Shown here in pieces: positions 34,901 to 64,000 of a stretch of 64,000 nucleotides of DNA. The stretch's first letter is position 1; the number at the start of each line of letters is the position of its first letter. The notes under the pieces were generated by a model, which made no database searches, had not been told where the DNA came from, and worked only from the letters and a program-made list of their open reading frames with translations. Source of the DNA: an uncultured Clostridia bacterium (GTDB lineage Bacteria; Bacillota; Clostridia; UBA1381); assembly GCA_944393255.1 (NCBI GenBank), contig CALXZP010000048.1:1-64000 (forward strand). The letters run 5' to 3'. The position numbers and the translations under genes were made by a program.

Positions 34901-34980
34901 AAGACCGTGATAAACGAGGTCTGTTTTGTCCGGAATAAAACAGAGTTGTTTGACGATATCAAAAAAGGAGGAGAGCTGAT

Positions 34981-36756
34981 TTGGAGCTTGAATTTTCTTG
35001 GGAAGAAAACGAATATATAAAAACGGTGCAAAAGGCGTCCTTTGCTGACGATATCCTGCTTGCCGATGTAAGGATAAAGTTCCTGACTAAATGTGTTCCC
35101 GAAAGAACAAGACTCAGCTTAGGGATCAACATGACCGATATATTCTCGACATGGAGCCCGCAGACGGGATATGACAGGGGGCTGCACAGCGATATGAATA
35201 AGCTGAGGCAGACCTCAAGAAGCGCGTCGTGGGCGCCGATAAAAACAATAATAAATGCTGAGGGGCAAAACAGGCTTACGGTCGCTGTCAGGGATTTTAA
35301 AACACCGATGGCTGTTCTCAGCGGCATAAGCGAGGAGGATGCAAAGCTCTGTATCGACATCGACTTTTTTACCGCGCCAACGGAAGCAAGGGAGGAATAC
35401 AGTACAGTAATACGGATCGACATGAGAAAAGTACCGTTTTACCGGTCTGTGAGCGATGTAAGAGAATGGTGGATGGACGGCAGAAAGATATATGTACCGG
35501 AAGCGGCGAAAGAACCGATATATTCGACCTGGTACGGCTTTCATCAAAACCTCGAGCCGCAGAAATTGCTTGAAGAATGCAGGATAGCATCGGAGCTGGG
35601 AATGAAAACGATAATAATAGACGATGGCTGGCATACCGCGAACGCCGACCGCGGTTATGCATTCTGCGGCGATTGGGAGCCGGAGGACGCCAAAGTCGGC
35701 AGTATGTCAGAGCTGACGAAAAAAATACATGATATGGGTATGAAGGTAATGCTGTGGTATTCGGTGCCGTTTGTCGGAAGGAACTCAGCAGTATGGGATA
35801 AATTCAAGGGTATGTATCTTGACAGCGAGGATAAGCAGTGGTGCAGATTAGATCCGCGTTTTCCGCAGGTCAGAGAATACCTCATAGACCTGTATAAAAG
35901 CGCTGTTATGGATTGGGGTATAGACGGACTTAAGCTCGATTTTATAGATTCGTTTGAATTGTTTGACGAATCAATCGAACCGCGTGAGGGACAGGACATC
36001 GTATCCTTGGAGGACGCGATAGAAAGACTTCTCGGCGACGCTTTGAATGAGCTGCGCAGTATTGATCCCGATATATGCATTGAATTTCGTCAGAGCTATA
36101 TAGGACCGCTCATGCAGACGTACGGAAATATGCTCAGGGTCTCGGACTGTCCGGGAGACGCCATGACAAACAGGCTGGGAAGCGTTGACCTTCGTCTTAC
36201 CTCAGGGGCATGCCCGGTACACTCCGATCCGCTTATGTGGCATAAAGAGGACAGCGCCGAAAGCGCGGCAAGACAGTTTTTAAATGTTATTTTTGCGGTG
36301 CCCCAGATATCCGTAAGGCTTGAAGACATGTCGGACGAGCAGCGCAGAATGCTCAGATTTTATCTGGATTTTTGGCGAAGGAACAGGGATATCCTGCTTG
36401 ACGGAGAGCTTGTGCCGGAGGGGCCTGAACAGAATTATTCTCTGGTATCCTCATGCAGGAACGGCGAAGGTATCGCCGTTATCTACGGGAATGCGGTTTA
36501 TGAATGTTCAAGACGGCTGCGGAAGCTTACGCTTATAAACTCCGGCAGCGGCAAAGCCGTATACGTGCATTTCGAACACGGCTGCGGAACGGGAAAGATC
36601 ACGGTTTACGGCTGTACCGGCAATATCATATCCAACGGAGAAGCAGAGGGAAAAGGAACGCTGAGAACAGATGTTCCGTTATGCGGTATGGCGGTGATAG
36701 AGTTCGTCAGGAGCGCAAAATCCACATGTCACGATGTTGATAAGTCTTATCAATAA
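34981..36756 (+). CDS. GH36-type alpha-galactosidase
   Basis: Removes terminal alpha-galactose (or alpha-GalNAc) from oligosaccharides by a retaining mechanism. The 591-residue protein has an N-terminal beta-rich domain (about 1-165), a TIM barrel (about 175-480) with WYGFHQNLEPQKLLEECRIA and IIIDDGWHT, and a C-terminal beta domain. The expected nucleophile is Asp320 in GLKLDFIDSF and the acid/base Asp389 in RVSDCPGD. There is no signal peptide, so it acts in the cytoplasm on imported sugar. It is shorter than classical GH36 (about 700-740). The start is TTG, seven bases after AAGGAGGAG. First gene of the locus. Confidence 0.88.
   Translation: MELEFSWEENEYIKTVQKASFADDILLADVRIKFLTKCVPERTRLSLGINMTDIFSTWSPQTGYDRGLHSDMNKLRQTSRSASWAPIKTIINAEGQNRLTVAVRDFKTPMAVLSGISEEDAKLCIDIDFFTAPTEAREEYSTVIRIDMRKVPFYRSVSDVREWWMDGRKIYVPEAAKEPIYSTWYGFHQNLEPQKLLEECRIASELGMKTIIIDDGWHTANADRGYAFCGDWEPEDAKVGSMSELTKKIHDMGMKVMLWYSVPFVGRNSAVWDKFKGMYLDSEDKQWCRLDPRFPQVREYLIDLYKSAVMDWGIDGLKLDFIDSFELFDESIEPREGQDIVSLEDAIERLLGDALNELRSIDPDICIEFRQSYIGPLMQTYGNMLRVSDCPGDAMTNRLGSVDLRLTSGACPVHSDPLMWHKEDSAESAARQFLNVIFAVPQISVRLEDMSDEQRRMLRFYLDFWRRNRDILLDGELVPEGPEQNYSLVSSCRNGEGIAVIYGNAVYECSRRLRKLTLINSGSGKAVYVHFEHGCGTGKITVYGCTGNIISNGEAEGKGTLRTDVPLCGMAVIEFVRSAKSTCHDVDKSYQ
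36737..36753. repeat. 17-bp palindrome ahead of the secreted glycosidase gene
   Basis: TTGATAAG-T-CTTATCAA is a perfect palindrome covering the last GH36 codons, five bases upstream of the -35 box at 36758. It may be an operator. Confidence 0.6.
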
Positions 36757-36757
36757 T

Positions 36758-36787
36758 TTGATAGAAAAAAGATATTTAGTCTATTAT
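36758..36787 (+). promoter_or_regulatory. possible promoter of the secreted glycosidase gene
   Basis: TTGATA (36758-36763), 18-base spacer, TATTAT (36782-36787), in an AT-rich gap; the palindrome at 36737-36753 adjoins it. Confidence 0.6.
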
Positions 36788-36828
36788 ACTAAAAAAGTGC
36801 AATAGACATTGAAAGGAGCTGTGGTAAG

Positions 36829-39800
36829 ATGACAAAAAAATTGATTACAGGCTTGTTTATGTGTCTCATGCTTACCGGCATATGGGCAGGCTCGGCAAAT
36901 GCCGAAAGCGTGGTAATGGAAGAATATAAAATAGAAAAGGATATAAAAGAGGTGACCTGCAGCTCATACCAGAACAGCGGATACGTTCCGGAACGCGGAG
37001 TGGATGACGATGACTCGACCATGTGGAACGCGAGAGGAGAGGGGCAATGGATCCGGGTAGAGCTTAACGAGATGGTGAAAATGGGAGCCGTGGGGATCGC
37101 GTTCGATAACGGCAACATGTATAAATATAATATTTCCGTTCAGGTCTCGCCCAACGGCACGGCGTGGAATACCGTTTACAGCGGTATGAGCTATTTGTCA
37201 AAGATATGCTATTACAGCTTCGAACAGACAGACGTAAAATACATAAAAGTCATTATGAACGGCAGCACGTTGAATTTGAACAACGGCATACGCAATATGA
37301 ATTTCTATTCGCAGGGGACTCCTCACTGCACAGTATCGGATTTTGGGTTTGACGATATCACAGCGCTTTATGATTACGATCCCGATGCACCGCCCGCGCC
37401 GAGGTGCAAATTCACGGTTGCGGGAGAAATGCTTGACGGGAGCGCCGTGAACGGAACGGCCGCAGTGCAGACAAAATATAAGGGACAGGAAACGATCTCA
37501 ACAAAGACTTATGATTTTCAGGTCTATGAGGGAAGGATGGACGATATATACTGCACTCTTGATCCCGTTACCGAGCCCGGCTGGTATTCCGTTACTATCG
37601 ACCTGTATATAGACGGACGCCTGATAAGCGAAAGCTCGTACGGCTTCGGCGTTATACGGGAGGCGCACGAGGGTCTGAAACCTGATTCGCCGTTCGGTCT
37701 CAACTTCCGTTCGGAAGGTGATTTTGAGGTCGGTCTTATGATAGGGCAGAAGATAGGCGTAAAGTGGACAAGAGGCATCCCGTCGGTAAATCCTACAAAT
37801 GTTAAACCGACAGAGGACAGTCCTTACTGGGATGAGCCGGGCAACGAGGAAGGACAGGCGTATATAGAAGAAGCTTATGAGACTATAGAACACCTCAACA
37901 GTATGGGGATGAGCATTCTCGGTTCCGTAGATTACAACATGCCCTGGAATATCACTCCTCTTGCTGACGGAACGATACCGGCGCTGCACCAGAACCGACC
38001 GCTGGATCTGGAGGAACAGGCAGAAATGGTATACCATATGATAAAGCCGTTTTACGGGATCATAAATAACTGGGAAATATGGAATGAACCATGGGTGCAC
38101 GGGTGGACATGGAGAACCGGCGACACGCAGGATTACCGCGACATGTCAAAGCTTATCTGGGATAAAGTCAAGCCGGAGATGCCGGACGTTATGCTTATAG
38201 CCGGAGGCTCGACGGCATACCAGCGCGACAGCCTCTACGCGGCCGGTTCAAAGGATACCGGTTATAACGACGGCTCTGTCAACCATGCGTATGCAACGCC
38301 AAGCATGTCGCTCGTCTCAGCCCTCAAGGAGCAGATGAATATGGATAAGCTGTATTCAAAGGGCGAAGGCAAAGGCGGAATGTGGCAGACGGAGGGCGGT
38401 ATATTGCCTACGGCTTTTGAGGGAACGCCTCTGGAGCAGCAGCTGATGGTATCGAGAGTTGTGGCGCCTTCATACCTTCAAAACCTGTTTGTGGCGAACG
38501 GCGAGGTTCCTATGAAATATTTCTGGTTTGCGCTTTCGTATGACAAAACCTATTCCGGCGGCGACAACAACATGTACGACGTATCAAGCAAAACACCGTA
38601 TCCGTGTGTTGTTGCATACTCGGCCATGACGCATTTTCTGGAGGATTCAAAATATAAATACGAGGCGTATCCGAACGCAAAATCGACCTGGGGGTTCGTT
38701 TTTGAGAGAGATGAGGATCACAAGGCTACAGCCGCAGTATATACGGCTACCGATCATGAAGGCTCATTCATCCTGGATAACGCTTTGGGAGTAAAGGCAT
38801 ACGATTATCTTGGCAGGGAAATAAGCGACGGCAGCGCCAAAACGCTTGTGATACCGATGAAATACTGGGAAACAGTATATTTGGTATCCGATAAAACTCC
38901 GGAACAGCTAAGGGATATGCTGGCGGACGCCGATATGCAGTATGATAATATACTTCAAATAGATCCTCAGAATTTTGTCCGTCCGGTAAATGAATCAAAT
39001 TCCATTGATATAAGAGTTGAAAATGTTACGAACAAACCGGTAACGGGTACGATCAAGCTAACAGCTCCGGAGGGGTGGAGCTTAAAGAATGATACGATCG
39101 AAATAAAGGAGCTTCCTTCATCGGAGGATATGATCGTATCGTTCCCGATAGATCACTTTGAGACCAACAGCATCAACAGATATCTTATAAGCTACGAATT
39201 CAAGGCGGACGGAAGCAGTTATACTCAGGAAAAGAGCCAGATCATACAAGCGGCGTTCGCACCTAAGCGGACGATAAAGGTGGACGGGAACCTGTCTGAC
39301 TGGAACGGCATAACTGCTGTAACTATGACTAATAACGGCACGATAGATATAGCCGCTGCTCAGCTCGATCCGTCTAAAGCGGAGGAGATACTTAGTCACG
39401 ATCCTTCAAAGGAAGATAAGGTAATGTACACATTAAAAACCGCATGGGACGATGAGAATTTTTATATGTGTGCGCAGATCCCCGATGTTCAGCAGACAAA
39501 AAAAGCGCCGTTTGAAGAGGATCCGTATCAGTTCCCATGGCAATACGACTGCATTCAGCTCGGCTTTAAGCCGCTGGAGATAAATCCCGACGATCCGTTT
39601 ATAGATGATCCGTATTATTATAAGGGATTGCATGCCGGTATCGACTACGAATTTGATCTCACGGCAACGAATGACGGCGGAGTGGAGCTTTACCGCGTTA
39701 TCGCGCCGGGTACGCATTTCCAAAACTATTATCCGACAAATGCGGAGCTTGATGTTCCCGTAGGGGCGATGGATGCGTCAGAAAGCGGCGGCAGTGACGG

Positions 39801-40092
39801 CGCTCTCGTTATAACCCGCGATGAGGAGAATATGATCACCACATATGAATGTGCGATATCATTGGATAATATCAGCGCGCTTAGGGACGTGCTTAAAGCT
39901 ACAAAAGCTAATGAAGCAGCGGTAAGCTGTTTTGCCTTCGGAGTTGTGGACACGGGAGACAGCAGTAAGGGCAGCAGCTATTGGCAGATAGAGATGGACT
40001 GTGTAGAGCTGCTTGCGGAGCGCGGACTTGCCCCGAACTGGAGCAATAAGTCCGGAAATGTAAATACCAGATGGGGCTTTTTGAATTACTAA
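36829..40092 (+). CDS. secreted clan GH-A-like glycoside hydrolase with F5/8C and CBM9-like domains
   Basis: A 1087-residue exported protein. Signal peptide 1-25 (cut after SANA). An F5/8 type C (CBM32-like) domain at about 33-165 (VPERGVDDDDSTMWNA). A beta domain at about 170-285. A TIM barrel at about 287-640 begins SPFGLNFRSEGDF and holds the likely acid/base Glu420 in WEIWNEPWVHG and nucleophile Glu522 in WQTEGGILP, the clan GH-A pattern. Beta domains fill about 640-810. A C-terminal CBM9-like module (about 815-1085) has VDGNLSDWNGI, AWDDENFYMCAQI and YDCIQLGF. Closest in look to GH39-like enzymes; family and substrate uncertain. No cell-wall anchor of its own. Confidence 0.75.
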   Translation: MTKKLITGLFMCLMLTGIWAGSANAESVVMEEYKIEKDIKEVTCSSYQNSGYVPERGVDDDDSTMWNARGEGQWIRVELNEMVKMGAVGIAFDNGNMYKYNISVQVSPNGTAWNTVYSGMSYLSKICYYSFEQTDVKYIKVIMNGSTLNLNNGIRNMNFYSQGTPHCTVSDFGFDDITALYDYDPDAPPAPRCKFTVAGEMLDGSAVNGTAAVQTKYKGQETISTKTYDFQVYEGRMDDIYCTLDPVTEPGWYSVTIDLYIDGRLISESSYGFGVIREAHEGLKPDSPFGLNFRSEGDFEVGLMIGQKIGVKWTRGIPSVNPTNVKPTEDSPYWDEPGNEEGQAYIEEAYETIEHLNSMGMSILGSVDYNMPWNITPLADGTIPALHQNRPLDLEEQAEMVYHMIKPFYGIINNWEIWNEPWVHGWTWRTGDTQDYRDMSKLIWDKVKPEMPDVMLIAGGSTAYQRDSLYAAGSKDTGYNDGSVNHAYATPSMSLVSALKEQMNMDKLYSKGEGKGGMWQTEGGILPTAFEGTPLEQQLMVSRVVAPSYLQNLFVANGEVPMKYFWFALSYDKTYSGGDNNMYDVSSKTPYPCVVAYSAMTHFLEDSKYKYEAYPNAKSTWGFVFERDEDHKATAAVYTATDHEGSFILDNALGVKAYDYLGREISDGSAKTLVIPMKYWETVYLVSDKTPEQLRDMLADADMQYDNILQIDPQNFVRPVNESNSIDIRVENVTNKPVTGTIKLTAPEGWSLKNDTIEIKELPSSEDMIVSFPIDHFETNSINRYLISYEFKADGSSYTQEKSQIIQAAFAPKRTIKVDGNLSDWNGITAVTMTNNGTIDIAAAQLDPSKAEEILSHDPSKEDKVMYTLKTAWDDENFYMCAQIPDVQQTKKAPFEEDPYQFPWQYDCIQLGFKPLEINPDDPFIDDPYYYKGLHAGIDYEFDLTATNDGGVELYRVIAPGTHFQNYYPTNAELDVPVGAMDASESGGSDGALVITRDEENMITTYECAISLDNISALRDVLKATKANEAAVSCFAFGVVDTGDSSKGSSYWQIEMDCVELLAERGLAPNWSNKSGNVNTRWGFLNY

Positions 40093-40109
40093 AACGGAAA
40101 GGATGAAGG

Positions 40110-41906
40110 ATGTTGAAAGGATCTAAATACATTTTGTGCGCCGCAGTCTGCACGGCAATGCTCACGGCTTGTATAAATACGGCGTTTGCGGAGCAGTCCG
40201 TCAGCGCGGTATTTGACGCCGGCAGCGGAAAGATAGAGGTAGCCGGGCAGGCGGAGCCTAAGGAAAGAGTGACGATAAAGGTAATAAACAGGGAGGATTG
40301 CCCCGGCGGAGACATTAACGGCGCGGAAGCTGAGGATATAGCTTATTTTGACCATATGTACACGGACGGGGAAGGCAATTTCAAGTTTGATTTTAGGATC
40401 GACGGGAGCAGAAAAAACGGAGGTTATTTAGTGTTCGTAAGCTCGGACGGAGTTTCGGTATCCGAATGCGAGTTCATTTTGATAGACAGTGCGCTTATAG
40501 ACGAAATGCTCTCCGAGCTGAATAAAGCTGCGGCTTCCGATGTAAGCAGTCTTGCGGAAAATGGTATTTTCACAGTCTTTGGTACAGACCAAAACAAAGT
40601 GGACAGATATTACGAAGCTGAGCAGTCGTACAGAGACGCCGCAAACGCTTCGTGGATCGCAGTCAGGCCCGAAAATGGGTATACAAGCGCGGCACAGGCG
40701 AACGACAGCTTTTATGCAGCTTGCAGCTTTGCGGAGCTTAAGGCTCTTGTGCCCGGTGAGGATAACCGTGCCGAAATTGAAAACGGTATAAAGAACGTAT
40801 TTGACGGATTGGGTGAAGGCGCTGTATGGGAAAAATACACCGGATCCAACGCCCAGAACATTTTAAATACGGAGGCAAAGGAAAAAATATATAAGGACGC
40901 GCTTGAATTTCTTAAGACTTCGGAAAATGCCGGGCAGTTCACTGAAAGCGTTACAAACGCCATGATATTGAATTCCATAAATTCATCTACCTCGTGGATA
41001 GGATATAAAAATCTGATAACCTTATCTGTAAGCAGCGGAGGCTTTTCCGAATACATATCCGGTGTAAACCTTTCGGGAATAGATGAAACTGTTATGACGT
41101 CGGCGTTTAAAAATGTATATAATTCAAAAACAACGGATTACGAAGATCTGAACGTCTTTATAAGAGATATAAATAATGCACTCAGCTCCGCATCCGGAAG
41201 CGCCCCGTCAGGCGGCGGCAGCAGCTCCGGAAACGGCGGCGGAGGCGGCGGGGGCGGAAGCAGCTCCGGCGGTGGCTACAGCAACAGCGGCGCGAATGTA
41301 CCGGGTGTATCTATTCCGGCAGATAAGCCGGTAACGCAGGATCAGACAAAAACGCCTGCTGAGAATAACGGGACATTCAACGATATGGATAACTATGGAT
41401 GGGCTGAAACGGCAGTAGAAGCCTTAGCGGCGAAGGGAATATTAAACGGAATGGGCGACGGCTCATTTGCTCCGGGTGCAAATGTGACGCGCGAGCAATT
41501 TGTAAAAATACTGGCGGAGGCGTTTGATATCGACATAAACGGCGGCGCAGAAGCGGATTTTGAGGATTGTGAGGTCTCTGACTGGAGCTATCCGTATATT
41601 GCCGCTGCCTACGAGCTTGGCTTCGTTAAAGGAGACAACGGAAAATTCGGAAAAATACAGAATATAAAAAGGGAAGACGCAGCGCTTATGCTTTATCGCT
41701 TTATGGGCATGGACTCCGGCAGCGGCGAAGGACCGGGATTTGCGGACATTGACGATATTTCCGATTACGCATTCGACGCTGTCTCGGCAATGGCAGCCGA
41801 GGACATAATAAACGGCAACGAAAAAAATGAATTTATGCCGAAAAGCTTTATGACGAGAGCGGAGGCGGCGCAGATAGTGTATAACGCCATTAAAGATGTT
41901 GATTAA
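40110..41906 (+). CDS. secreted SLH-domain protein with Ig-like head
   Basis: A 598-residue surface protein. The N-terminal signal sequence offers both a lipobox (LTAC at about 18-21) and a signal peptidase I site (AFA-EQ at about 28); since SLH domains already provide anchoring, simple secretion is more likely. Residues about 30-130 form an Ig-like beta domain; about 130-365 are helical with no recognised family. A Gly/Ser linker spans about 366-398. Three SLH domains follow: NYGWAETAVEALAAKGILNG, SDWSYPYIAAAYELGFVKG and SDYAFDAVSAMAAEDIINGN. SLH binds pyruvylated wall polymer. ATG is seven bases after AAAGG; 18 bases behind the glycosidase, so cotranscribed. Confidence 0.85.
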   Translation: MLKGSKYILCAAVCTAMLTACINTAFAEQSVSAVFDAGSGKIEVAGQAEPKERVTIKVINREDCPGGDINGAEAEDIAYFDHMYTDGEGNFKFDFRIDGSRKNGGYLVFVSSDGVSVSECEFILIDSALIDEMLSELNKAAASDVSSLAENGIFTVFGTDQNKVDRYYEAEQSYRDAANASWIAVRPENGYTSAAQANDSFYAACSFAELKALVPGEDNRAEIENGIKNVFDGLGEGAVWEKYTGSNAQNILNTEAKEKIYKDALEFLKTSENAGQFTESVTNAMILNSINSSTSWIGYKNLITLSVSSGGFSEYISGVNLSGIDETVMTSAFKNVYNSKTTDYEDLNVFIRDINNALSSASGSAPSGGGSSSGNGGGGGGGGSSSGGGYSNSGANVPGVSIPADKPVTQDQTKTPAENNGTFNDMDNYGWAETAVEALAAKGILNGMGDGSFAPGANVTREQFVKILAEAFDIDINGGAEADFEDCEVSDWSYPYIAAAYELGFVKGDNGKFGKIQNIKREDAALMLYRFMGMDSGSGEGPGFADIDDISDYAFDAVSAMAAEDIINGNEKNEFMPKSFMTRAEAAQIVYNAIKDVD

Positions 41907-41918
41907 GGAGATTGACCT

Positions 41919-44789
41919 ATGAAAAAGAAATTAAAGAGTATAGCATGTCTGCTTGTCTCGGCTGTAATGCTGCTGTCGTTTGCTCCGGCGTCATTCGCTG
42001 ACGGGGAAACGGGCGCCGCCGCTGAGACGGACAGCGAGATAGTTGAGATGTATGCCATAGGGGTACTGCCCGACGCTCCGGATAAGGATTTCAGACCGGA
42101 CGATATGATAACGCGCGGTGAATTTGCAGAATGGCTTGCCTGCGCGGGTATGCTGGAAGCGCATTCGTCCAAAGCAGCTTTTGCCGATGTTCCGGAGGAG
42201 TCGCCGTATGCAGCAAGCATTGCGGCTCTTGCAGAAAATGGCATAGTTGACGGTTCGGGCGGAGGCACATTCAGACCTGATTCCGACATTACTATAGCGG
42301 AGGCCGTAAAATGCGTTATAGGACTGCTTGATTTTAAGGAAGCCGCAGAGCGGTACGGCGGTTATCCGGACGGATATCTCAGACTGGCTTCGGACGCAAA
42401 GCTCTTAAAAGGAGTGGAGACTTCGGATGACGGTCATATAACCAGACGAAACGCCGCCGTGCTTATTTACAATATGATGTTTGAGAACGTATATAAAATG
42501 GAGGTGTCAGGGGGAAACGTCAAGTATACGGTAGATAAGGATACAACATTTTTATACAAGACCAGAAAGCTGGTCAAGATGACGGATGGTATCGTGACTG
42601 TAAATGCAGTTACCGATCTCAACGGCGGAAGCGGAGGTCAAAAGGGGTATGTGACGATCGGAGATACTGTTTTCGAGGATCCTTCGGGCAGTGCAAAGGA
42701 GCTGATAGGCAGGAAGGTAGATTACTACTATACAGACAGAGGAGCCGGCGACTGCGGCGAGCTTGCGTATATAGCCCGGTCGTCAAAGACGGAAACAGTC
42801 ACTGTTTCATCCGAGGATATTGACGCTTATGAAAATAATGTTCTTAAAATATTCAAAGGCTCAAAATCTTCAAAGCTGAACATTTCTCCCGAAGTTGACG
42901 TGATCGTTAACGGAAAGGTACTGGACTATTCAAAAAATGATATAGAATTCCGGGATGATGACGGGTCTGTTTCACGATACGGTACTATAGAGCTGGCCGA
43001 TAACGATAATGACGGAAAATACGACCTTATGGATGTACACTCGTATTACAACATTATCGTCAGCTATGTACGCGATCTCGACGAGGGCAGCGGTGCGGCG
43101 CAGCACGACTATGAGATAATCGATAAAAACGGAAAAACCGTAAAGATATCGGAAAACATAAGCTATAGCATAAAGGACAGATCCGGCGGCGATATACCGT
43201 TATCCTCGCTTAAGGAATTCGATGTTCTTGCCGTTGCGGAGAGCAGCGATCATGAGAATATAGAGATGGTATACTGCGACGAGGCAGTTACCGGAGAAGT
43301 TACCGGTATCGGTACGGATGATGAAAAATACATAGTGACCATCGACGGCGCCGAATATACGATACTCAGAAAAGCGGGCTTCTACAGTCCGTCGCAGTCG
43401 GAAGACTCGCTCGGACTCGAAGCTGGCGACAAGGCGTTTTTCACGCTGGATCTCGGCGGCAATATAGCTTTGGTAAAGGACAAATCCGTGAACACCGGAG
43501 ACAATTACGGTCTTATTATAGATTACTGCTATGACGACTCAAAAAGCGATATACTGATAAAGATATTGAGGAATGACGGAAACATCGTACTGATGACGGC
43601 AGCAAGAAGGATCACGGTCGATGAGCTCAGCTACAAAAGTGCAGACAAGCTTTTTGAACGGCTGACGGAAGTGAGCAGGGAGCTGAACGGCACAGACGCG
43701 GCAGGCAGACCGCTCAGAAAAGAATTTGTGGTAAAATACGCACTGAACAGCGAGGGCTATGTGAGGAATATAGATACACCGTATATAAACGAACCGGGCA
43801 GCGGCGAGGATGAGCAGTCGCTGCATATGATGAGCCTTCGGCGTGAATCGGACGAGCATACGGCAGCCGATCCGGTCAGCCTGATATACAGGGCAAACAC
43901 GTTCGGCGGACGGATCGTTGTAACAAGCGATACGCTGTTCTTCTATATGCCGCCCGCAAACGATATATCGGATGATAAATACGCAGTTCTTCCTTCATCA
44001 ATGCTAAAGATAGATTCCGACCACAATATCCAGGCGTATATCACCAATACGTCGTCGCAGATACCGGAAGCTGTTCTGATATGCGCATCCCCTGTATACA
44101 CAAAGAACGTACAGGAAATAGACAAGGGGACAGATATAAATATATATTTGAAGAAGATCGAAGCGGTGGATGAGGAAGGAGAGCCGAAAAATGCGGTCGT
44201 ATTGTTCCAGAACGGACGTGAGATAACAAAATGCGTAGAATCTGAGGATGTGGAAAACTTTAAAGAATTGACTCCCGGCGACGTTATACGTTTCGGTACA
44301 AATTCGAGCGCCAACATTGACAGGATAGACGTGGTTTATAAGCGTGACACGAATAAGCTGCCGAGACAGGGACTGGCAAACGATGCATCGCTCACCAATA
44401 ATAATATACTGTTTACAAACGGAGGGGCAAGAGCGGTATTCGGCGGCGTATACGGGAAAGAAGATAATATTATCGCAGTCGTGAACCAGATAAAGAAATA
44501 TCAGGAAAGCGATACGACCGGAACGGACGACGGCATTCTCGTAAACGATAATATGGCCGATCTATCCCTGGCCGCGAAGTCGAGCATTGAAAGATATGAT
44601 ATATCGTCGTATCAGATATACAGATTTAACGGCGGGGACAAGCCAAATGTTCAGACCGTTACCGTAAACGATGTTATGGCGTATCAGGAGACTTACGGCA
44701 ATTACGATTATGCGCTGGTATATACCATGGACTACAGACCGGGCATAATAATATTGTACAGCTCGAATGAAGTAGTGTGGGATTATTGA
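41919..44789 (+). CDS. secreted S-layer-like protein with N-terminal SLH domains
   Basis: A 956-residue exported protein. Signal peptide 1-28 (ends SFA-DG). Three SLH domains lie at the N-terminus (about 35-195): EIVEMYAIGVLPDAPDKDFR, SPYAASIAALAENGIVDGSG and GYLRLASDAKLLKG. The remaining 760 residues are beta-rich and repetitive in character, with many Asp/Gly turns, and match no family I recognise. Contrasts with the previous protein, which has C-terminal SLH. AAGGAG lies eight bases before the ATG, and the gap to the previous stop is 12 bases. Possible roles: S-layer component or scaffold presenting the locus enzymes. Confidence 0.83.
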   Translation: MKKKLKSIACLLVSAVMLLSFAPASFADGETGAAAETDSEIVEMYAIGVLPDAPDKDFRPDDMITRGEFAEWLACAGMLEAHSSKAAFADVPEESPYAASIAALAENGIVDGSGGGTFRPDSDITIAEAVKCVIGLLDFKEAAERYGGYPDGYLRLASDAKLLKGVETSDDGHITRRNAAVLIYNMMFENVYKMEVSGGNVKYTVDKDTTFLYKTRKLVKMTDGIVTVNAVTDLNGGSGGQKGYVTIGDTVFEDPSGSAKELIGRKVDYYYTDRGAGDCGELAYIARSSKTETVTVSSEDIDAYENNVLKIFKGSKSSKLNISPEVDVIVNGKVLDYSKNDIEFRDDDGSVSRYGTIELADNDNDGKYDLMDVHSYYNIIVSYVRDLDEGSGAAQHDYEIIDKNGKTVKISENISYSIKDRSGGDIPLSSLKEFDVLAVAESSDHENIEMVYCDEAVTGEVTGIGTDDEKYIVTIDGAEYTILRKAGFYSPSQSEDSLGLEAGDKAFFTLDLGGNIALVKDKSVNTGDNYGLIIDYCYDDSKSDILIKILRNDGNIVLMTAARRITVDELSYKSADKLFERLTEVSRELNGTDAAGRPLRKEFVVKYALNSEGYVRNIDTPYINEPGSGEDEQSLHMMSLRRESDEHTAADPVSLIYRANTFGGRIVVTSDTLFFYMPPANDISDDKYAVLPSSMLKIDSDHNIQAYITNTSSQIPEAVLICASPVYTKNVQEIDKGTDINIYLKKIEAVDEEGEPKNAVVLFQNGREITKCVESEDVENFKELTPGDVIRFGTNSSANIDRIDVVYKRDTNKLPRQGLANDASLTNNNILFTNGGARAVFGGVYGKEDNIIAVVNQIKKYQESDTTGTDDGILVNDNMADLSLAAKSSIERYDISSYQIYRFNGGDKPNVQTVTVNDVMAYQETYGNYDYALVYTMDYRPGIIILYSSNEVVWDY

Positions 44790-44802
44790 AAGGTGTGATA
44801 AT

Positions 44803-47541: not shown

Positions 47542-47563
47542 AACATAAAAAAGGGATGATCGA

Positions 47564-48517: not shown

Positions 48518-48535
48518 TCGGGGAGGCGTGCGTAA

Positions 48536-49444: not shown

Positions 49445-49454
49445 AAAATATATT

Positions 49455-49472
49455 GCATATTTTAAAATATGC
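49455..49472 (+). repeat. 18-bp palindrome upstream of the binding-protein gene
   Basis: GCATATTTTAAAATATGC is a perfect palindrome between permease two and the ribosome site of the lipoprotein gene. In RNA it would fold into a 7-bp stem with loop TTAA. It may protect or separate the lipoprotein mRNA. Confidence 0.7.
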
Positions 49473-49487
49473 GGAAAGGAAATGACA

Positions 49488-50996: not shown

Positions 50997-51028
50997 GCAT
51001 AAAATAATGTAACGTGAGGGGAATGGAA

Positions 51029-53857: not shown

Positions 53858-53876
53858 CAGAATAGGAGCATGTTAT

Positions 53877-55526
53877 ATGAGCAGTAAAAAATCATTGATA
53901 GAAAGACTGAGATGGATATTCGGGATATTCCTGCTGCTTAACATAATATTTCTTATTGTGATAAATATGCTTTCCTTTAACGATCTGAAAACGCATGTTG
54001 TTGACATAAATAAACAGGCGCTCGAAAACGTAACGAACGACTGGAACAGCTCTATCAATAATGTCGGCTCGTATATTATGAATATCACATATCAGGAGCG
54101 CGAACCTCTTGATCATATCATGACGGGCACAGATAAAAACTCAATAGAATACATTCTTGCGTATAGCGAGCTTCGGAAAAGGTTTCAGAATGACCTCATG
54201 TATATACAAAATATGAGCGCGTATTTTGTATACACAGAACAGCTTGATGATATTATTTTTGTCAGCTCAAAAAATGATAATACTTTTATTGACAGCATTG
54301 AAAACATAAAGGATGTATGCGAAGCGAACGGAGCATGGCATCTGGTAAACTGCGAGAATAAAAGCTATCTTGCGAAGGCAATAAACATAGGCTACAGCAC
54401 ATATATGGGCGCGGTACTGGATCTTTCTGATGTTGTACAGCCCCTTAAGGAGCTGTATCCGGAGGAGGGGCTTAGCTTCCGTATCGCCGATAAAGACGGC
54501 AATACGCTATACAGTGACATTAACGATGAAGCAGAATCCGGCATAAGCATAGAAAGCGAGATAGGCTCGGTAGACGTCAGTATCCAGGAGGTAATTCCGG
54601 AGGGCTATATCTACAGCCGTATCCCGGGCGCACAGTTTCTGCTGCTTATATGTATATCGGCATGTATGATAATATTGCTGTTTATAATTTATATAGTGCA
54701 GTACAACGCTATACAGAAACCGATACAATCGCTTATCAAATCAGTAAAAAAGGTTGAAAACGGTATTATAGACGCGCACGTGGACGAGCAGGGCTCTTAT
54801 GAATTCGACTATCTTATCCGTTCCTATAACCATATGCTCGATCAGATATACGATCTGAAGCTAAATATAGCGGAAACGGAGCTGAACAAAAAATATATGG
54901 AGCTGAAACAGCTGCAGGCGCAGATAAACCCACACTTTTTTATGAACAGCCTTAATCTGATATCCAGCCTTTCGGCGCTGCAGGAGTATGATAATACGCT
55001 AAGGCTTGTAAAGCTGCTGTCCGATTATTTCCGGTTTGCGGTTAGGAATAATGATATATCTACATCAATAAGCAAGGAAGTGGAGCACATAAAAACCTGT
55101 CTGGAGATCCATAAAATACGGTTCCCGCAGAATTTGGACTATGAATGTATCGTTGACGGCGATGTAAAGGATGTAATGATCCCGCCTCTGACTATACAGC
55201 CGCTTACAGAGAACGCGATCATACACGGATTCAGGCATGAAAAAAATGTGATATTTAAAATTATAGTAAGAATAGAGAGGAAGGACGGCTTTCTCTGCAT
55301 AACTGTTTCGGACAACGGAAACGGTTTTACCGATAAGGCCATAAAATATATACGCGACGGGCTTGGCGACAGCAGAAAGACGGAGCATATAGGTATACAG
55401 AACGTGTATCTGCGGCTGAATATTTTTTTTGACGGCGCTGCTGATATGGATTTTAGAAACAATTCCGGCGGCGGAGCCGAGGTTGTGATCAGGATACCGG
55501 AAGACAAGCTTCGGGAGGAGAAATAA
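53877..55526 (+). CDS. YesM-type sensor histidine kinase
   Basis: A 549-residue membrane kinase of the YesM/LytS-like group. Helix 1 at about 14-36, an outer sensor domain (about 37-255, Cache-like), helix 2 at about 256-282, HAMP linker (KPIQSLIKSVKKVENGIIDA). The kinase core has phospho-His353 in QAQINPHFFMNSLNLISSL, N box TENAIIHGF and G box VSDNGNGF. Kinases of this class control nearby polysaccharide-utilisation genes. The gene ends one base before the regulator start, so the pair is cotranscribed. GGAG lies upstream of the ATG. Confidence 0.94.
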   Translation: MSSKKSLIERLRWIFGIFLLLNIIFLIVINMLSFNDLKTHVVDINKQALENVTNDWNSSINNVGSYIMNITYQEREPLDHIMTGTDKNSIEYILAYSELRKRFQNDLMYIQNMSAYFVYTEQLDDIIFVSSKNDNTFIDSIENIKDVCEANGAWHLVNCENKSYLAKAINIGYSTYMGAVLDLSDVVQPLKELYPEEGLSFRIADKDGNTLYSDINDEAESGISIESEIGSVDVSIQEVIPEGYIYSRIPGAQFLLLICISACMIILLFIIYIVQYNAIQKPIQSLIKSVKKVENGIIDAHVDEQGSYEFDYLIRSYNHMLDQIYDLKLNIAETELNKKYMELKQLQAQINPHFFMNSLNLISSLSALQEYDNTLRLVKLLSDYFRFAVRNNDISTSISKEVEHIKTCLEIHKIRFPQNLDYECIVDGDVKDVMIPPLTIQPLTENAIIHGFRHEKNVIFKIIVRIERKDGFLCITVSDNGNGFTDKAIKYIRDGLGDSRKTEHIGIQNVYLRLNIFFDGAADMDFRNNSGGGAEVVIRIPEDKLREEK

Positions 55527-55527
55527 A

Positions 55528-57108
55528 ATGTATAGTATTCTTATACTCGACGACGAGCTTTATGCTGTAAGAGCGCTTACAGAGACTATAGACTGGGAAT
55601 CGCTTGGGATAGACACGGTATACGGAACATGCTATCTGGACGAGGCAATACAGATACTTACGGAGAAAAAGATAGACATACTGCTTACGGATATAGTTAT
55701 GCCCGGCAAAACCGGCTTCGATATGGTGGAATTTATACATGAACGCCGTTTGAATACGAAGATAATCATGGCTACGGCTCATGAAAATTTTCAGTTCGCT
55801 CAAAAGGCGGTCAGCCTGGGCGTGATCGACTATCTGCTCAAGCCCATCAGCATGGACGCTTTGAAAAAGGCGCTGAACACCGCGTTCGCTCAGATTTCGG
55901 AGGAAAAAGAGCAGCAGCTGCACGATGAGGAATATAAAAAGAGCATCGAGCTTTGGAACAGCAATATACCGTTCATAATCGAGCGTTTCTGGCGAGATGC
56001 ATTATCCGGCCGCACCGTATGCGACACGGAACGGCTTATAAGATTTTTCCGCGGTATAGACGAACCGTTTGACGAAGCGCCGGAGCTGCTTGTGATCATC
56101 ATATCTATGGATGAATGGGAAAGCAGCGAATATGAATTTGAAGAGGATATCGCAAATTACGGCATAAGAAACCTTGCTCAGGAGATCATAGGAGATCCCG
56201 TTAACGGAAAGATACTCGAGGACGATGATGAAAATAATATCGGCATTATTTATATGACCAATGATGTGAGCATCGGAGATGTTGAAAACGCGTGCCGCAA
56301 GCTCATAGACTATTGCAGGGAACGCATGCAGATAAAGGTGAGCTGTTACCTCAGCAACGTGGTAAGACCCGAGGAGCTATTGAAGGAATACCGTGATATC
56401 GTCAATATATACTGGGAGCATTCAAGTTCTGAAAGCGATATCATAAGAAAAGACAAAGTCAGCCGCAGCCAATCGGCAGTGTCGGATGAAACATATTTCG
56501 CCGATATAGATACGCCTTTTGAAAAGCTCAAAAAAAATCAGCTTATAGGCGAGATAGAGGAGCTTTTCGAGCATTATGAATATATGTCAAATGATATGCT
56601 CATGGTCATCTATCACGGAGTTGCGCTGTGTGCGTATAATTACTGCTCCAAACGCGGCATAAATACCGGTATGCTCGACGAAAAAATAAATTCAAAATCT
56701 CTGATGACTTCAAAAAACAAGCTTAAAAAGTGGTGTATAGATATAATAAACGAGGTCGTTTCCGATGATACGAGCGACTTTGAGGATGAAAAGATAACGG
56801 CGGTCAAGGACTATATCAAGAAAAATTATATGAACCACATTACGCGCGAGACTATCTCTAACGAACTGTATTTTAACGCGTCTTATTTATCGAGACTGTT
56901 CAAGAAGGAGATAGGTATGAGCATATTCGAATATCTTGCAAGCGTGCGCATAGACGAGGCAAAACGTCAGCTTATCTATACCGATAAAAAGATAAGCACT
57001 ATCGCAATGGACGTCGGCTACAACCATTTTTCGCATTTTGCAAACATATTCCGTCGGCTGACCGGACTTACGCCAAAGGATTACAGGGATCAGAACAAAC
57101 GTGTGTAA
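55528..57108 (+). CDS. YesN-type response regulator (receiver plus AraC DNA-binding domain)
   Basis: Partner of the YesM-like kinase. 526 residues: receiver domain about 1-125 with phosphoacceptor Asp55 in LLTDIVMPGKTGFDMVEF and Lys in DYLLKPIS. A linker region of about 300 residues follows. The C-terminal AraC-type double helix-turn-helix (about 425-523) has ITRETISNELYFNASYLSRL and KISTIAMDVGYNHFSHFANI, then FRRLTGLTPKDYRDQ. It should activate the surrounding carbohydrate genes when the kinase detects an oligosaccharide outside the cell. Confidence 0.95.
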   Translation: MYSILILDDELYAVRALTETIDWESLGIDTVYGTCYLDEAIQILTEKKIDILLTDIVMPGKTGFDMVEFIHERRLNTKIIMATAHENFQFAQKAVSLGVIDYLLKPISMDALKKALNTAFAQISEEKEQQLHDEEYKKSIELWNSNIPFIIERFWRDALSGRTVCDTERLIRFFRGIDEPFDEAPELLVIIISMDEWESSEYEFEEDIANYGIRNLAQEIIGDPVNGKILEDDDENNIGIIYMTNDVSIGDVENACRKLIDYCRERMQIKVSCYLSNVVRPEELLKEYRDIVNIYWEHSSSESDIIRKDKVSRSQSAVSDETYFADIDTPFEKLKKNQLIGEIEELFEHYEYMSNDMLMVIYHGVALCAYNYCSKRGINTGMLDEKINSKSLMTSKNKLKKWCIDIINEVVSDDTSDFEDEKITAVKDYIKKNYMNHITRETISNELYFNASYLSRLFKKEIGMSIFEYLASVRIDEAKRQLIYTDKKISTIAMDVGYNHFSHFANIFRRLTGLTPKDYRDQNKRV

Positions 57109-57147
57109 AAAAAATTTCGAAAAAGTGTCAGAAGGAGGGATGGCGGT

Positions 57148-59751
57148 GTGAGAATATATAAGATAATGATACTTGCTCTTGTCATATCGCTGCTGCCTGT
57201 GATCCCTTCAAAAGCCTCGGGAGAAGGCGAAGCCGTATTTTCCTGGCTGGGCAATTCCTATTCCGGCGAGACGGGGATAAGCGGCAGCGGAAGCGAGATA
57301 AGCATGACCGTGCCGCACGATGTTGCGGCGATGTATGTTTCCCCGGACACAGGCAGGCTGTATACGAACGCTTTCTGGAACGAAAGCGGAAACAATTTCT
57401 CGGAGATAACCGACGGCGAGCTGACTAACGTGGGAATGCACAGTCACGGCTGGGGCTATGAAGGCGGATACGCCGTAACGGCAAATTCAAAATATGTATA
57501 CTTTGGTCAAAGCGCGTCGTATCAGAGCGCAAGAGACGGAAACGATAACTGGCCGGAGGAAGGATATGCATGGTTCGGAGTGACAAGACGTCTTGTAAGC
57601 GATATACAAAGCGGCGACCCGTTTAACGGCATGAAAACCGGAGGAGGCATATATTTTATGCCTATAGACAATATACCGGTATACACCCCGGATCAAAGCT
57701 CAGGCGAGCAGCAGCCGGAGGGAACTGTTTCGGGAAGCTCCGAATGTGTGATCTCAGGACTTGCGGCGACGGAAAGCGAACTGTTCGTAAGCGATACCTT
57801 TGAAGATAAAATAAAGGTGTACGATGCGGACTCCATGGTCAAAAAGCGAGAATGGGCCTGCCCCGGGCCGGGACAGCTTGCGTTGGATTCTAACGGGAAT
57901 TTATGGGTAGTGATGCCGGAGGACGATCAGATATTGTGCTTTGATACGTATGGCAATCCCCTGAGGGTGATATCCGTACGCGGCGGAGAGCTTTGGGCGA
58001 TCGCCGCTACCGGCGACGGACGCTTGCTTGCAGCAGACCGCGGCGAGGCTGAATGTATACGCGTTTATACAGGTCTTAATTCCAACAGTCCTAAGCTTGA
58101 AGGATACATAGGCGAGACCGGAGGGATATTCTCGGGAGACGGTACCGGCTGCGGAAAGATAGGAGACCGGAGGTTCTACGGGATCACCGGCGTGGGAGCT
58201 GACGCGGACAATAACATATATGTATGCAGCGGCGGAGCTTTCGACCCGTCCGACGATGAATCCTTCGGAACAACGTTTCTTGAAAGCTATACGGAAAGCG
58301 GGACGCTGCGGTGGCGGCTGTACGGACTTGAGTTTTTGGACAGCGCCGTTGCCGATCCGGACGATCCGACAAGCGTATATACAAAATTTGAGCGGTTTAA
58401 GATGGACTATTCACAGCCGCCGGGACAGGAATGGAGCTACGAGGGCTATACCTTAAACCCTCATAAATATCCGGATGATTTCAGGCTGAAGGATAATTCC
58501 ATTCATGTTATAGCCGTGCGGACGATAGGCGGAGTAAAAACTCTTTATGCAACAGGCATGTACGGGCATAATCTTTACGTATACCGGTTTGACCCGGAAA
58601 CAGACGGCGAAACAGCCATTCCGTGCATGGCGGTATACGACGATACGCAGGAGAGGAAGGTAACTCTCATGCAGGACACGACTGGCGACGGGAGCTTTGA
58701 CTCATTTACGCCGATATGTCCTTCCGATACTTTTCCCAAATACGATCATGTCTGGGTCGGCTGGGATATAGACGCCGATGGGACGATACGAAACAGCCGT
58801 GTGTCAAAGCAGATAATCGATGAATACAAATTCGAGGGTATAAATGAAAACGGCGTGCCGGTCTGGAGCTATACGCCGCTTGAAACCGGAGCAGGCATCG
58901 CCGCGCCCGCTCCGTTCAACGGAGAGACGGTCGGGGATATAAATGAAAACCAATATGCCGACCTGAGAATGTGCCGTTACGATGCAGCGAACGATGTGAT
59001 GTACCTGACAGGCGCATTCGACAGCTATACCTACGAGGCAGGACAGCCGGCACAGCAGATGACGGCGCAGTCGAAATCGCCGGGAGATACTATAGCACGG
59101 TTTGAAAACTGGAGCAAGGGCAACAGAGAGCCTGCTTATGTCAGAAAATTCGATTACAGCACGAAGCTGTATCAAAACAAGTATCTAAATCTTAACGCCG
59201 GCTTTGCCGTGAGCGGCGATTATATATTTGTATGCGAGTCAGCCTTTACGGAGCTGGGGGCGCTGCATATATACGAGGCCGAAACGGGCGAGAAGGTGCA
59301 GGATATAGAATATGACCAATGCTTCGGGGAGCTTGGGCTTCTTGACATTGTAATGCCTCTTTCAGCCGTACAGCTTCCGGACGGAAGATACATGATTCTT
59401 TTGGAGGAGGATCTGCACGGCAAGATACTTATCATATATTGGCAGCCGCCCGATGCATATACGTTTTCGGAAACGGATTTTTCGGAAATTGAGCAAAACG
59501 GCAGCGTATCTCTTTCAATGACAAGGATATCGCCTCAAAGCGGAGATATATATATCTACTTTGCCGTATATGAGAACGATAAGCTCATAGATATCCGGCA
59601 GGTCATAAAGACGGACGATGAAATGCCGGTCGGGGAGGAGATAACAGTTTCGGCGGTATTTGACGGACTCAAAGCCGGCTGTGAGATACGCATCATGGCA
59701 TGGACAAGCTCTCAGCGTCCGCTCAAGCCCGCTGAAAGCTACCGTATTTAA
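57148..59751 (+). CDS. secreted beta-propeller-like protein
   Basis: An 867-residue exported protein, signal peptide 1-24 (ends SKA-SG). The body has NHL/SMP-30-like blade motifs: DVAAMYVSPDTGRLYTNAFW, CVISGLAATESELFVSDTF, PGQLALDSNGNLWVVMPEDD, ELWAIAATGDGRLLAADRGE and GITGVGADADNNIYVCSGG, suggesting a multi-bladed propeller over about 30-780. The last 80 residues are a small beta domain (IYFAVYENDKLIDIRQVIK) seen at the C-terminus of secreted glycan proteins in related Clostridia. No catalytic residues are recognised; it could bind or, like some propeller lyases, cut polysaccharide. The start is GTG with GGAGGG upstream. 39 bases after yesN. Confidence 0.75.
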   Translation: MRIYKIMILALVISLLPVIPSKASGEGEAVFSWLGNSYSGETGISGSGSEISMTVPHDVAAMYVSPDTGRLYTNAFWNESGNNFSEITDGELTNVGMHSHGWGYEGGYAVTANSKYVYFGQSASYQSARDGNDNWPEEGYAWFGVTRRLVSDIQSGDPFNGMKTGGGIYFMPIDNIPVYTPDQSSGEQQPEGTVSGSSECVISGLAATESELFVSDTFEDKIKVYDADSMVKKREWACPGPGQLALDSNGNLWVVMPEDDQILCFDTYGNPLRVISVRGGELWAIAATGDGRLLAADRGEAECIRVYTGLNSNSPKLEGYIGETGGIFSGDGTGCGKIGDRRFYGITGVGADADNNIYVCSGGAFDPSDDESFGTTFLESYTESGTLRWRLYGLEFLDSAVADPDDPTSVYTKFERFKMDYSQPPGQEWSYEGYTLNPHKYPDDFRLKDNSIHVIAVRTIGGVKTLYATGMYGHNLYVYRFDPETDGETAIPCMAVYDDTQERKVTLMQDTTGDGSFDSFTPICPSDTFPKYDHVWVGWDIDADGTIRNSRVSKQIIDEYKFEGINENGVPVWSYTPLETGAGIAAPAPFNGETVGDINENQYADLRMCRYDAANDVMYLTGAFDSYTYEAGQPAQQMTAQSKSPGDTIARFENWSKGNREPAYVRKFDYSTKLYQNKYLNLNAGFAVSGDYIFVCESAFTELGALHIYEAETGEKVQDIEYDQCFGELGLLDIVMPLSAVQLPDGRYMILLEEDLHGKILIIYWQPPDAYTFSETDFSEIEQNGSVSLSMTRISPQSGDIYIYFAVYENDKLIDIRQVIKTDDEMPVGEEITVSAVFDGLKAGCEIRIMAWTSSQRPLKPAESYRI

Positions 59752-59805
59752 AAATGAGAGCTGCCGAAAACAGCGTAATAATACAGAATATCAGGAGGGG
59801 ATATC

Positions 59806-60819
59806 GTGGGATATATAACGGATATCGTAAACAGGGTTGTTTATGGAAAAGATACGTCATGGATGATGGACGCGGAGCGTTTCGACTGGAATCCGGGAGT
59901 TTTTCTTGCAGGTGCGGCGGCCGCCTATGATAAATACGGCGATGCGCAAATATTGAACTATCTCACCGGCTGGGCGGACAGACATATGGACGAGGCATAC
60001 GGGCAGCACACGGTAAATTCTACCGCGCCGCTTATCATGCTGCTTGAACTGTACCGCATTACCGGCGATGAAAAATACATATCCGTATGCGATGATATAG
60101 CGGAGCAGATAATAACAAAAGCTCCGTTAACTGCCGACGGCGGATTAGAGCACACCGTTACGGAGGATGCGGAGTTCAAAAACCAGATGTGGGCTGATAC
60201 GCTGTTTATGGCAGTGCTGTTTATTGCAAGGTACGGCAGGCTTACGGACAAGGATGAATATACGCGCTTTGCCGCAGAACAGCTCAGGCTGCATCATAGG
60301 TTTCTGCGCGACGATAAAAGCGGGCTGTTTTTCCACGGCTGGAACGGCGATACGCGCAGCCATATGTCGGGAGTCAGATGGGCAAGAGCCAACGCATGGG
60401 TCGTGCTTGCATCAGTCCTTATCTTAAACGAGCTGCCGGAGGATATTTACGGGCGCAGCGATGTAACGGCGTCGCTGAACGCCCTTATCAAGGCTCTTTC
60501 GGAATGCCAGGATGAAAACGGCGGTTTCCATACCGTTCTTGACAGAAGCGAGTCCTATATTGAGACTTCCGCCTCCGCAGGTATCGCAGCAGGTATATTC
60601 TGCGGCGTCAGCTCCGGCATTATCGATAAACAATATCTGCCGGCTGCAAAAAAGGCGGCGGAGTTTGTAAAAACACAAATAAAAGCAGACGGCAGCGTGG
60701 ATAACGTATCCGGGGGCACGCCTGTGCTCGAAAGTACCGAGGCATATTTTGAGGTAGCGCGCGGTTCGGCTTTGTACGGACAGGGACTTGCGCTGTTTAT
60801 GCTTGCTTTTGAAAAATAA
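59806..60819 (+). CDS. GH105-type unsaturated uronyl hydrolase
   Basis: A 337-residue alpha/alpha-barrel enzyme without signal peptide, so cytoplasmic. It matches the GH105/YteR-YesR group, which removes the 4,5-unsaturated uronic acid that lyases leave at oligosaccharide ends. Marks: FDWNPGVFLAGAAAAYDKYG, the catalytic Asp131 in NQMWADTLFMAVLFIARYG, LFFHGWNGDTRSHMSGV and WARANAWVVLAS (usually WARGNGW; two Gly-to-Ala changes). Its presence strongly implies that a polysaccharide lyase acts in this locus. Start GTG, with CAGGAGGGG upstream. Confidence 0.85.
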   Translation: MGYITDIVNRVVYGKDTSWMMDAERFDWNPGVFLAGAAAAYDKYGDAQILNYLTGWADRHMDEAYGQHTVNSTAPLIMLLELYRITGDEKYISVCDDIAEQIITKAPLTADGGLEHTVTEDAEFKNQMWADTLFMAVLFIARYGRLTDKDEYTRFAAEQLRLHHRFLRDDKSGLFFHGWNGDTRSHMSGVRWARANAWVVLASVLILNELPEDIYGRSDVTASLNALIKALSECQDENGGFHTVLDRSESYIETSASAGIAAGIFCGVSSGIIDKQYLPAAKKAAEFVKTQIKADGSVDNVSGGTPVLESTEAYFEVARGSALYGQGLALFMLAFEK

Positions 60820-60875
60820 AAACGGAATGAGCGTAAAGCTCATAAAAATTCAAAGAACAGAAAGGAGCAGTAGTA

Positions 60876-63800: not shown

Positions 63801-64000
63801 GGCGATACAGTCCGTGACGGCGTTTATGAATTTGCGCGCGACGCGGAGCTTATCGGTATAGGCTCCGGCGGCTCGTGCACGATAGGCGCGTTCAAGACCG
63901 GCGCCGGTCAGTATATAAAAACTTCAACGAGCGAAAACGTTTCGGATAAAGCGAAAACCTTTATCATGCTCAAGGACGTTGATCTTGAAGGCGTAAGATC
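60876..64000 (+). CDS. large secreted multimodular protein: GLUG, three CBM6-like repeats, degenerate SGNH-like domain (runs off right edge)
   Basis: Open frame from the ATG at 60876 to the window end, at least 1041 residues. Signal peptide 1-24 (ends IAA-DE). Residues about 28-300 contain GLUG-type repeats (FTGEFDGNGYSVTGLSGTQG, YVGGLVGQTNNSS). A Pro/Ser/Thr/Ala linker spans about 303-375. Three CBM6-like sandwiches at about 377-515, 516-662 and 680-798 each end with a K-ITGKHTV-like strand (LTEKITGKHTVYVKW, LPEKITGIHMITVQI, LKEPVSGVHTFTFKT). An SGNH-like domain (about 805-970) has block I IAFIGESEFS and GIVVIMFGRQEM, both altered from the usual GDS and GxND. More sequence follows. AAAGGAG is eight bases upstream. 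Function: glycan binding, enzyme activity doubtful. Confidence 0.8.
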   Translation, partial: MKKKMTALMLCTAMFAGLTPGIAADEVTHISSVEQLAGISADGASLDGSYILDNNIDLTGYSWTAIGTSSLPFTGEFDGNGYSVTGLSGTQGMFAVVNGGTVKNLKVEGNVSGRDSIALVAGSLLGAGQVLNCYASGSVSGRNYVGGLVGQTNNSSNLITNSCFIGEISGSARGPGGIVSSLPDHANINNCYVAASFDVPETDTAAGTITGSIGGSDIVLRAYADISLSGDLPLPADPEKTGVAYDAYGLTTAQMRSEDFVRTLNSNISEYGTGEWSSWTYNEAGYPIQQIFNKTGEVVTPKPQETVSASPSASPPATPEASPGVSEPPSPSATASPKPSSSPTADPIFTMSPATPAPTATPVSAPNPSDQRSAYDDMNFIDYNEYYNITNNQPETLNMNSGGVFTRTDAEEYYIRFDNVDFGDTGTYAAELYVRMTAFIDHPEQQIEIYTDSLDTPVGTLDYGQAYKQNSATTAQRYGVELTEKITGKHTVYVKWQGSLIGIRLRFAEGIISLSEYENVLPATLAQMRVSENGEIQNDSYGDGGPAVQCIGKYSMLDSISFPAVDFGSEGVSKTVTLRLARSSAMQVEQEFEEETKPKARILLGGRGGEVIAETEIPASSAAELGKWYTYTMELPEKITGIHMITVQINYETKLRYIAFDYDVPEPAPEEYEEIDGHKVMTPEQAVMTGTFTGTRGEFMPKYALMSGDMVFNSVKLDNAEYLTAYVATSGQTGTVGVFMDEDTEPIAEITADSADFYSVTAQLKEPVSGVHTFTFKTTSGRALNIGWMKFMTSGEKDVFDSRTRIAFIGESEFSSSGRRQYTTQIAKMADSEQYRMECFFTAAKLGALDTSEITAYAPGIVVIMFGRQEMQTASGNFEENYQKLIDALKTADPNVKIYIQTPVPLNTDAANYGAVRETLYSLAEQNGAEVIDIYDYLLGSGYPREYLFANSDRGLISSACREMIGYHTYRAIFGGDTVRDGVYEFARDAELIGIGSGGSCTIGAFKTGAGQYIKTSTSENVSDKAKTFIMLKDVDLEGVR

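Follow-up and report, generated by a model that had tools for sequence, protein, structure and literature searches.

A Gram-positive polysaccharide utilization locus (gpPUL) is defined as encoding a degrading enzyme together with its transport system and a transcriptional regulator (PMC5320581). The one described in silico in Roseburia hominis A2-183 comprises a PL12 gene, an unsaturated glycoside hydrolase, a two-component regulator and three ABC genes (PMC9067506, PMC5320581). In the xanthan system of Ruminococcaceae UCG13 (R.UCG13), as outlined in a review of Ostrowski et al. 2022 (PMC10881899), an endo-xanthanase produces oligosaccharides that are then acted upon by a xanthan lyase, followed by GH88 and GH38 enzymes.

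The locus analysed here occupies positions 34981-64000 of a 64,000-nucleotide window at the start of a 123,745-bp contig in a 2.6-Mb, 98% complete Clostridia genome (Table 1). It contains all three elements of the definition, with degradation represented by GH36-like, GH39-like, GH105 and SGNH proteins, transport by two permeases with a DUF3502 solute-binding protein, and regulation by a YesMN pair. Judged from its genes, the locus is a gpPUL of ordinary design that carries one unusual orphan enzyme, the HEAT-heparinase-like protein encoded at 51014.

With the Roseburia hominis gpPUL it shares the clustering of a lyase-superfamily gene, an unsaturated uronyl hydrolase, an ABC importer and a two-component regulator; however, it also encodes two SLH proteins, a GH36-like enzyme, SGNH esterases and a GH39-like glycosidase predicted to be exported, and its lyase-like gene has no family-level PF07940 match. 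Within what the review reports of R.UCG13, both loci combine an endo-hydrolase with a lyase acting on oligosaccharides, an unsaturated glucuronyl hydrolase, GH38, esterases and an ABC importer, so far as the present genes have the activities proposed below, whereas GH39-like and heparinase-fold proteins stand here in place of GH5 and PL8. The proposed oligosaccharide-lyase route would thus have a close precedent, by analogy, in R.UCG13 as reviewed. No PL8 lyase or GH5 xanthanase matched any protein of the window locus, and no GH94 occurs among the genes read; xanthan is not indicated as the substrate, because neither GH5 nor PL8 was recognised in the locus. In two Cohnella loci, which also carry GH42, the neighbours of a GH36-like gene likewise include an Lpl importer and a wall-anchored CBM9/SLH protein of giant size, the middle part of which is weakly GHA-like. 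Unlike the window locus, they fuse enzyme and SLH anchor in one protein, and no lyase-like or GH105 gene occurs in the flanks examined.

Among 80 loci of GH36-like relatives (flanks up to 10 kb, threshold E 1e-8), similar permeases were found at 21, and relatives of the GH105, lyase-like, GHA or NHL proteins at none. The exact gene combination therefore seems private to the species as far as sampled. An initial sequence-only reading had stated that the gene set matches no nameable locus, which holds for the exact combination (no GH105 or lyase-like gene at any of the 80 loci); the design, in contrast, is known as that of a gpPUL (PMC5320581, PMC9067506).

Table 1. Genes and active-site motifs of the locus, in window coordinates; export and function are as predicted.
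Feature	Positions	Strand	Basis
GH36-like (clan D) glycosidase, 591 aa, no signal peptide, distinct subfamily	34981..36756	+	Melibiase match
Exported glycosidase: signal segment, CBM32, clan GH-A (GH39/PslG-like) catalytic domain, CBM9-like C-terminus	36829..40092	+	F5/8C and profile matches
SLHa, exported, three C-terminal SLH repeats (wall anchor)	40110..41906	+	SLH 112 bits, 3 stretches
SLHb, exported, two N-terminal SLH repeats	41919..44789	+	SLH 52.6 bits
Exported Big_5 protein, C-terminal CBM32-like (F5/8C) domain	44803..47541	+	Pfam, hydrophobic N-terminus
ABC permease A, Lpl/YtcP-type importer	47564..48517	+	BPD_transp_1 54 bits
ABC permease B	48536..49444	+	BPD_transp_1 40.5 bits
Solute-binding lipoprotein, DUF3502/LplA type	49482..50996	+	DUF3502 76 bits, SBP_bac_1 37 bits
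HEAT N-terminal domain and divergent heparinase II/III-superfamily core, 947 aa, no signal peptide	51014..53857	+	HEAT_2 41 bits, HHalign
VDNQTL, Asn362 aligned to the family's invariant neutraliser Asn	52091..52108	+	HHalign alignment
GEGSTYMNH, Tyr418 aligned to the family's invariant catalytic Tyr	52250..52276	+	HHalign alignment
ISRYHCNPNSL, Arg567 in place of the catalytic His, invariant second His569 kept	52706..52738	+	HHalign alignment
YesM-type sensor histidine kinase	53877..55526	+	His_kinase 70 bits, HAMP, HATPase_c
YesN-type response regulator, AraC DNA-binding domain	55528..57108	+	Response_reg 78 bits, HTH_18 87 bits
Exported NHL/SGL-like beta-propeller protein	57148..59751	+	SGL 23 bits, below cut-off
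GH105-type (GH88 clan) unsaturated uronyl hydrolase candidate, 337 aa, no signal peptide	59806..60819	+	Glyco_hydro_88 278 bits
Exported CBM6 and SGNH/GDSL esterase protein, 1450 aa	60876..64000 (ends at contig position 65228)	+	CBM_6 x4, Lipase_GDSL_2 x2

Extent and organization of the locus

The open reading frames form an uninterrupted series of 14 genes on one strand, separated by intergenic gaps of only 2-73 nt, where at least 11 had been claimed. No plus-strand terminator-like site was detected in the gaps scanned (34200-54100), and neither Rfam elements nor tandem repeats were found in the locus. The 73-nt gap preceding 36829 contains a promoter-like match, and elsewhere in the genome the SLH pair, the importer with YesMN, and the enzyme genes reappear in other mixtures. 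Both observations would suit an arrangement of two or more adjoining loci with separate substrates (for example, GH36/GHA/SLH versus importer/regulator/GH105), but the tight spacing throughout and the lack of terminator-like sites in the scanned gaps argue for a single locus and make such a division improbable.

The operon runs past the window, its last gene stopping 1.2 kb outside, and same-strand carbohydrate genes continue to about 79.7 kb on the contig. First come genes for a copper-amine-oxidase-N-domain protein and two CBM6 proteins, the second of which is 1774 aa long and bears a pair of SGNH/GDSL esterase domains; these are followed by genes for a PfkB kinase, a lyxose-isomerase-like cupin, a class II ketose-bisphosphate aldolase, a GH38 alpha-mannosidase and a HAD phosphatase. 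Since the gaps at 65.2-68.5 kb widen to 142-386 nt, a single transcript extending over this part is uncertain. Between 80 and 100 kb of the contig, an opposite-strand carbohydrate cluster, read from sequence without profile search, comprises GH3-like, FGGY-kinase-like, transketolase-half, GH10-type xylanase and 2134-aa GH2-like genes.

Hydrophobic N-terminal segments, called by a hydrophobicity rule rather than SignalP, are present in both SLH proteins, in the proteins encoded at 36829, 44803, 57148 and 60876, and in the solute-binding protein, whose N-terminus (...SAGCSS) reads as a lipobox. By the same rule, none was found in the GH36-like, HEAT-heparinase-like or GH105 proteins, in line with the sequence-only reading, whose assignment of an Lpl-type importer and YesMN regulators was also borne out by the Pfam matches in Table 1. 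The permeases and binding protein are encoded without an accompanying ABC ATPase gene; a shared MsmX-type ATPase encoded elsewhere in the genome is expected.

The HEAT-heparinase-like protein and the GH105 candidate

Pfam, NCBIfam and PDB sequence searches with the protein encoded at 51014 returned nothing except HEAT. When its 751-residue core was aligned by HHalign to a reference profile of 19 PF07940 proteins from the class and the same genome, the match reached a probability of 96.4% (E 1.1e-9, score 80.7, 428 columns), taking in the toroid and continuing into the beta-sandwich. Scores were 14-18.5 for eight shuffles and the reversed sequence, with the shuffles at probabilities below 1%, 12-24 for 10 other locus proteins, and 31.7 for the GH105 protein, also an alpha toroid. 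Removal of the own-genome rows left the probability at 96.7%, and five random half-sets of the profile gave 27-96%, a spread indicating that the match is partly profile-dependent, yet far above the controls. By this sequence-profile comparison, the protein is assigned to the heparinase II/III superfamily. A single-sequence AlphaFold2 prediction was uninformative (mean pLDDT 34.5).

According to the structure paper on PL35, Tyr, His and Asn form the triad common to these lyase families (PMC12088678). The protein resembles the superfamily (PF07940; PL12, PL15, PL17, PL21, PL35, PL39) in its toroid-to-sandwich match and in retaining the Asn, the Tyr, the second His and the metal-site His, but differs in having no Pfam-level match, a HEAT N-terminus, no relatives found, and an Arg where the catalytic His stands in 18 of the 19 PF07940 members. 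Thus, in the ungapped alignment the Asn-Tyr-His triad is incomplete, and lyase activity is plausible but unproven because of this substitution; His569 lies two residues beyond Arg567, and a small shift in the alignment is possible. The claim of a HEAT-heparinase lyase accordingly stood as regards superfamily ancestry, with HHalign at 96% and low controls, and fell short at the triad His.

Translated searches for homologues covered the class (291 genomes), family (70), phylum (398), order (95) and 49 named genomes, along with plasmids and a genome-contig scan, and yielded only HEAT-region or chance matches in about 800 genomes. Tentatively, the protein may found a new lyase family, characterized by a heparinase II/III fold, a HEAT domain and the Arg-for-His replacement, whose intracellular substrates would be oligosaccharides imported from an acetylated acidic polymer.

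An intracellular lyase had been considered uncommon, a view that does not fit the PF07940 proteins of the class. By the hydrophobicity rule, all 17 with a readable start and a length of 552-730 aa have no signal segment, and among all those read, larger ones included, about 21 are without and 12 with one (about two thirds without), a count drawn from loci that were not randomly chosen and including some uncertain start codons. Among the three other PF07940 proteins of the same genome, two (contigs C25 and C26) have no signal peptide and one (C3) has a signal. Rarity may hold for intracellular lyases of other lyase families. On C25 (6056-14964), the signal-less protein (938 aa) adjoins a 2008-aa protein of no assigned class. 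On C26, as read from sequence, the 583-aa heparinase II/III protein lies near GH94-like and FAD-dependent proteins, in a locus that also encodes beta-helix-like proteins, one with SLH-like repeats.

The GH105 candidate combines the family profile with the conserved Asp131 of the WxDTLxM motif, and matches 3qwt/3pmm in the PDB at E about 1e-53, as well as YteR and ulvan hydrolase. Its nearest NCBIfam model is the beta-galactosidase BglB (262 bits, below the cut-off of 420), so its activity on unsaturated uronates is assigned by family only. Elsewhere in the genome, a KDPG aldolase gene adjoins a KDG-kinase-like gene, as unsaturated uronate use needs. KduI (PF04962) was not found in this 98% complete genome, and the last uronate steps would then need the DhuI/DhuD route, which takes the place of KduI in streptococci (PMC5430744).

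In a rather unlikely yet serious alternative, the locus is the same but the protein at 51014 has lost or changed its chemistry and is a binding protein or another enzyme rather than a lyase, with termini of other origin, or a non-uronic beta-glycoside, as the target of GH105. The Arg at the catalytic His position would suit it, as would the BglB model nearest the GH105 protein and the lack of an orthologue in any genome searched, which is consistent with relaxed constraint. Against it, the Asn, Tyr, second His and metal-site His are all retained, and the gene lies mid-operon with an intact frame.

The GH36-like enzyme, exported glycosidase and surface proteins

The GH36-like protein matches the Pfam Melibiase/GH36 profile at 39 bits (cut-off 27), and both catalytic aspartates, D320 and D389, are invariant in a 13-member alignment of its relatives. 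An AlphaFold2 model built from 20 sequences (pLDDT 88) has its best Foldseek matches among GH36 alpha-galactosidases/alpha-galactosaminidase (E 1e-24 to 1e-27, TM about 0.65). Its predicted fold and the two aspartates place it in GH36, within a subfamily of 580-600 aa that occurs in many Clostridia, Paenibacillus, Cohnella and some Bacteroidetes.

The protein encoded at 36829 carries an F5/8-type C (CBM32) domain (47.5 bits), and E420 (WNEP) and E522 (TEGG) are invariant across seven aligned proteins. The family profile matches 5jvk (1e-51), PslG (1e-24) and also GH39 beta-xylosidases, although most of the profile strength is supplied by relatives, the protein alone reaching 5jvk at E 0.03 only. 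These conserved features identify it as a predicted exported clan-A glycosidase, beyond a plain binder. Accordingly, the earlier description of two SLH proteins and four other exported glycan-associated proteins agrees with the export segments, but the one at 36829 is more than a binder, being a glycosidase, and the one at 60876 carries esterase domains. The beta-propeller protein at 57148 matches NHL propellers in the PDB weakly.

SLHb has 42 matches in its own genome, several of which are long paralogues, and PHROG matches of the SLH proteins are confined to the SLH repeats. Other polysaccharide loci of the genome, on contigs C13, C27, C3, C26 and C42, place such a paralogue next to an SLHa-type protein that ends in SLH repeats, and several of these loci also encode Lpl importers and response regulators. 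The neighbour on C13 and C27 is about 1,700 aa long and has SLH repeats of its own. The SLHa/SLHb pair looks like a recurrent wall-anchoring cassette whose cargo varies between loci. A literature search on Monoglobus with SLH found nothing.

The combination of a heparinase-superfamily protein with an unsaturated uronyl hydrolase is a hallmark of GAG gpPULs (PMC9067506), and the best-matching folds for the GH36-like protein include an alpha-galactosaminidase, both of which would accord with a host glycan of the glycosaminoglycan or mucin type, instead of a plant or microbial polysaccharide, as substrate. However, the genes read in the operon and in its extension include no sulfatase or hexosaminidase. 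An acetylated polymer that contains mannose is suggested instead by GH38 and the several SGNH esterases, and a host substrate appears the least probable of the alternatives.

A proposed route for an acidic heteropolysaccharide

We favour, with a probability of roughly 0.55, a substrate-specific gpPUL for an acetylated, uronic-acid-containing heteropolysaccharide that would be bound and cut outside the cell and finished inside. In this scheme, YesMN would sense the substrate, SLH-anchored and CBM proteins would keep the polymer at the wall, the GH39/PslG-like exported glycosidase would cleave it, and SGNH esterases would remove ester groups. After uptake of the oligosaccharides by the Lpl-type importer, the GH36-like enzyme may strip an alpha-linked side sugar in the cytoplasm, and the heparinase-fold protein could cut at the uronic acid by beta-elimination, leaving an unsaturated uronate for removal by GH105; mannose would be taken off by the GH38 enzyme encoded downstream. 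Gene content, family assignments and spacing are read directly from the sequence, whereas localisation, co-regulation, the sequence of steps, lyase activity and the substrate are predicted. The absence of conserved synteny for a GH36-lyase-GH105 partnership among the 80 GH36-like loci counts against this explanation, as do the Arg at the catalytic His position, the missing KduI and the BglB model nearest the GH105 protein. As a whole, the sequence-only reading of one polysaccharide locus with surface proteins, an importer, YesMN and three signal-less enzymes is retained, except for the supposed rarity of an intracellular lyase.

The locus offers a compact, testable enzyme set for acidic-glycan use in a gut lineage that has received little study, together with an orphan enzyme whose lyase active site seems rewired. 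If active, this protein would be the founder of a new lyase family; if inactive, it would be a caution against inferring lyase chemistry from fold alone.
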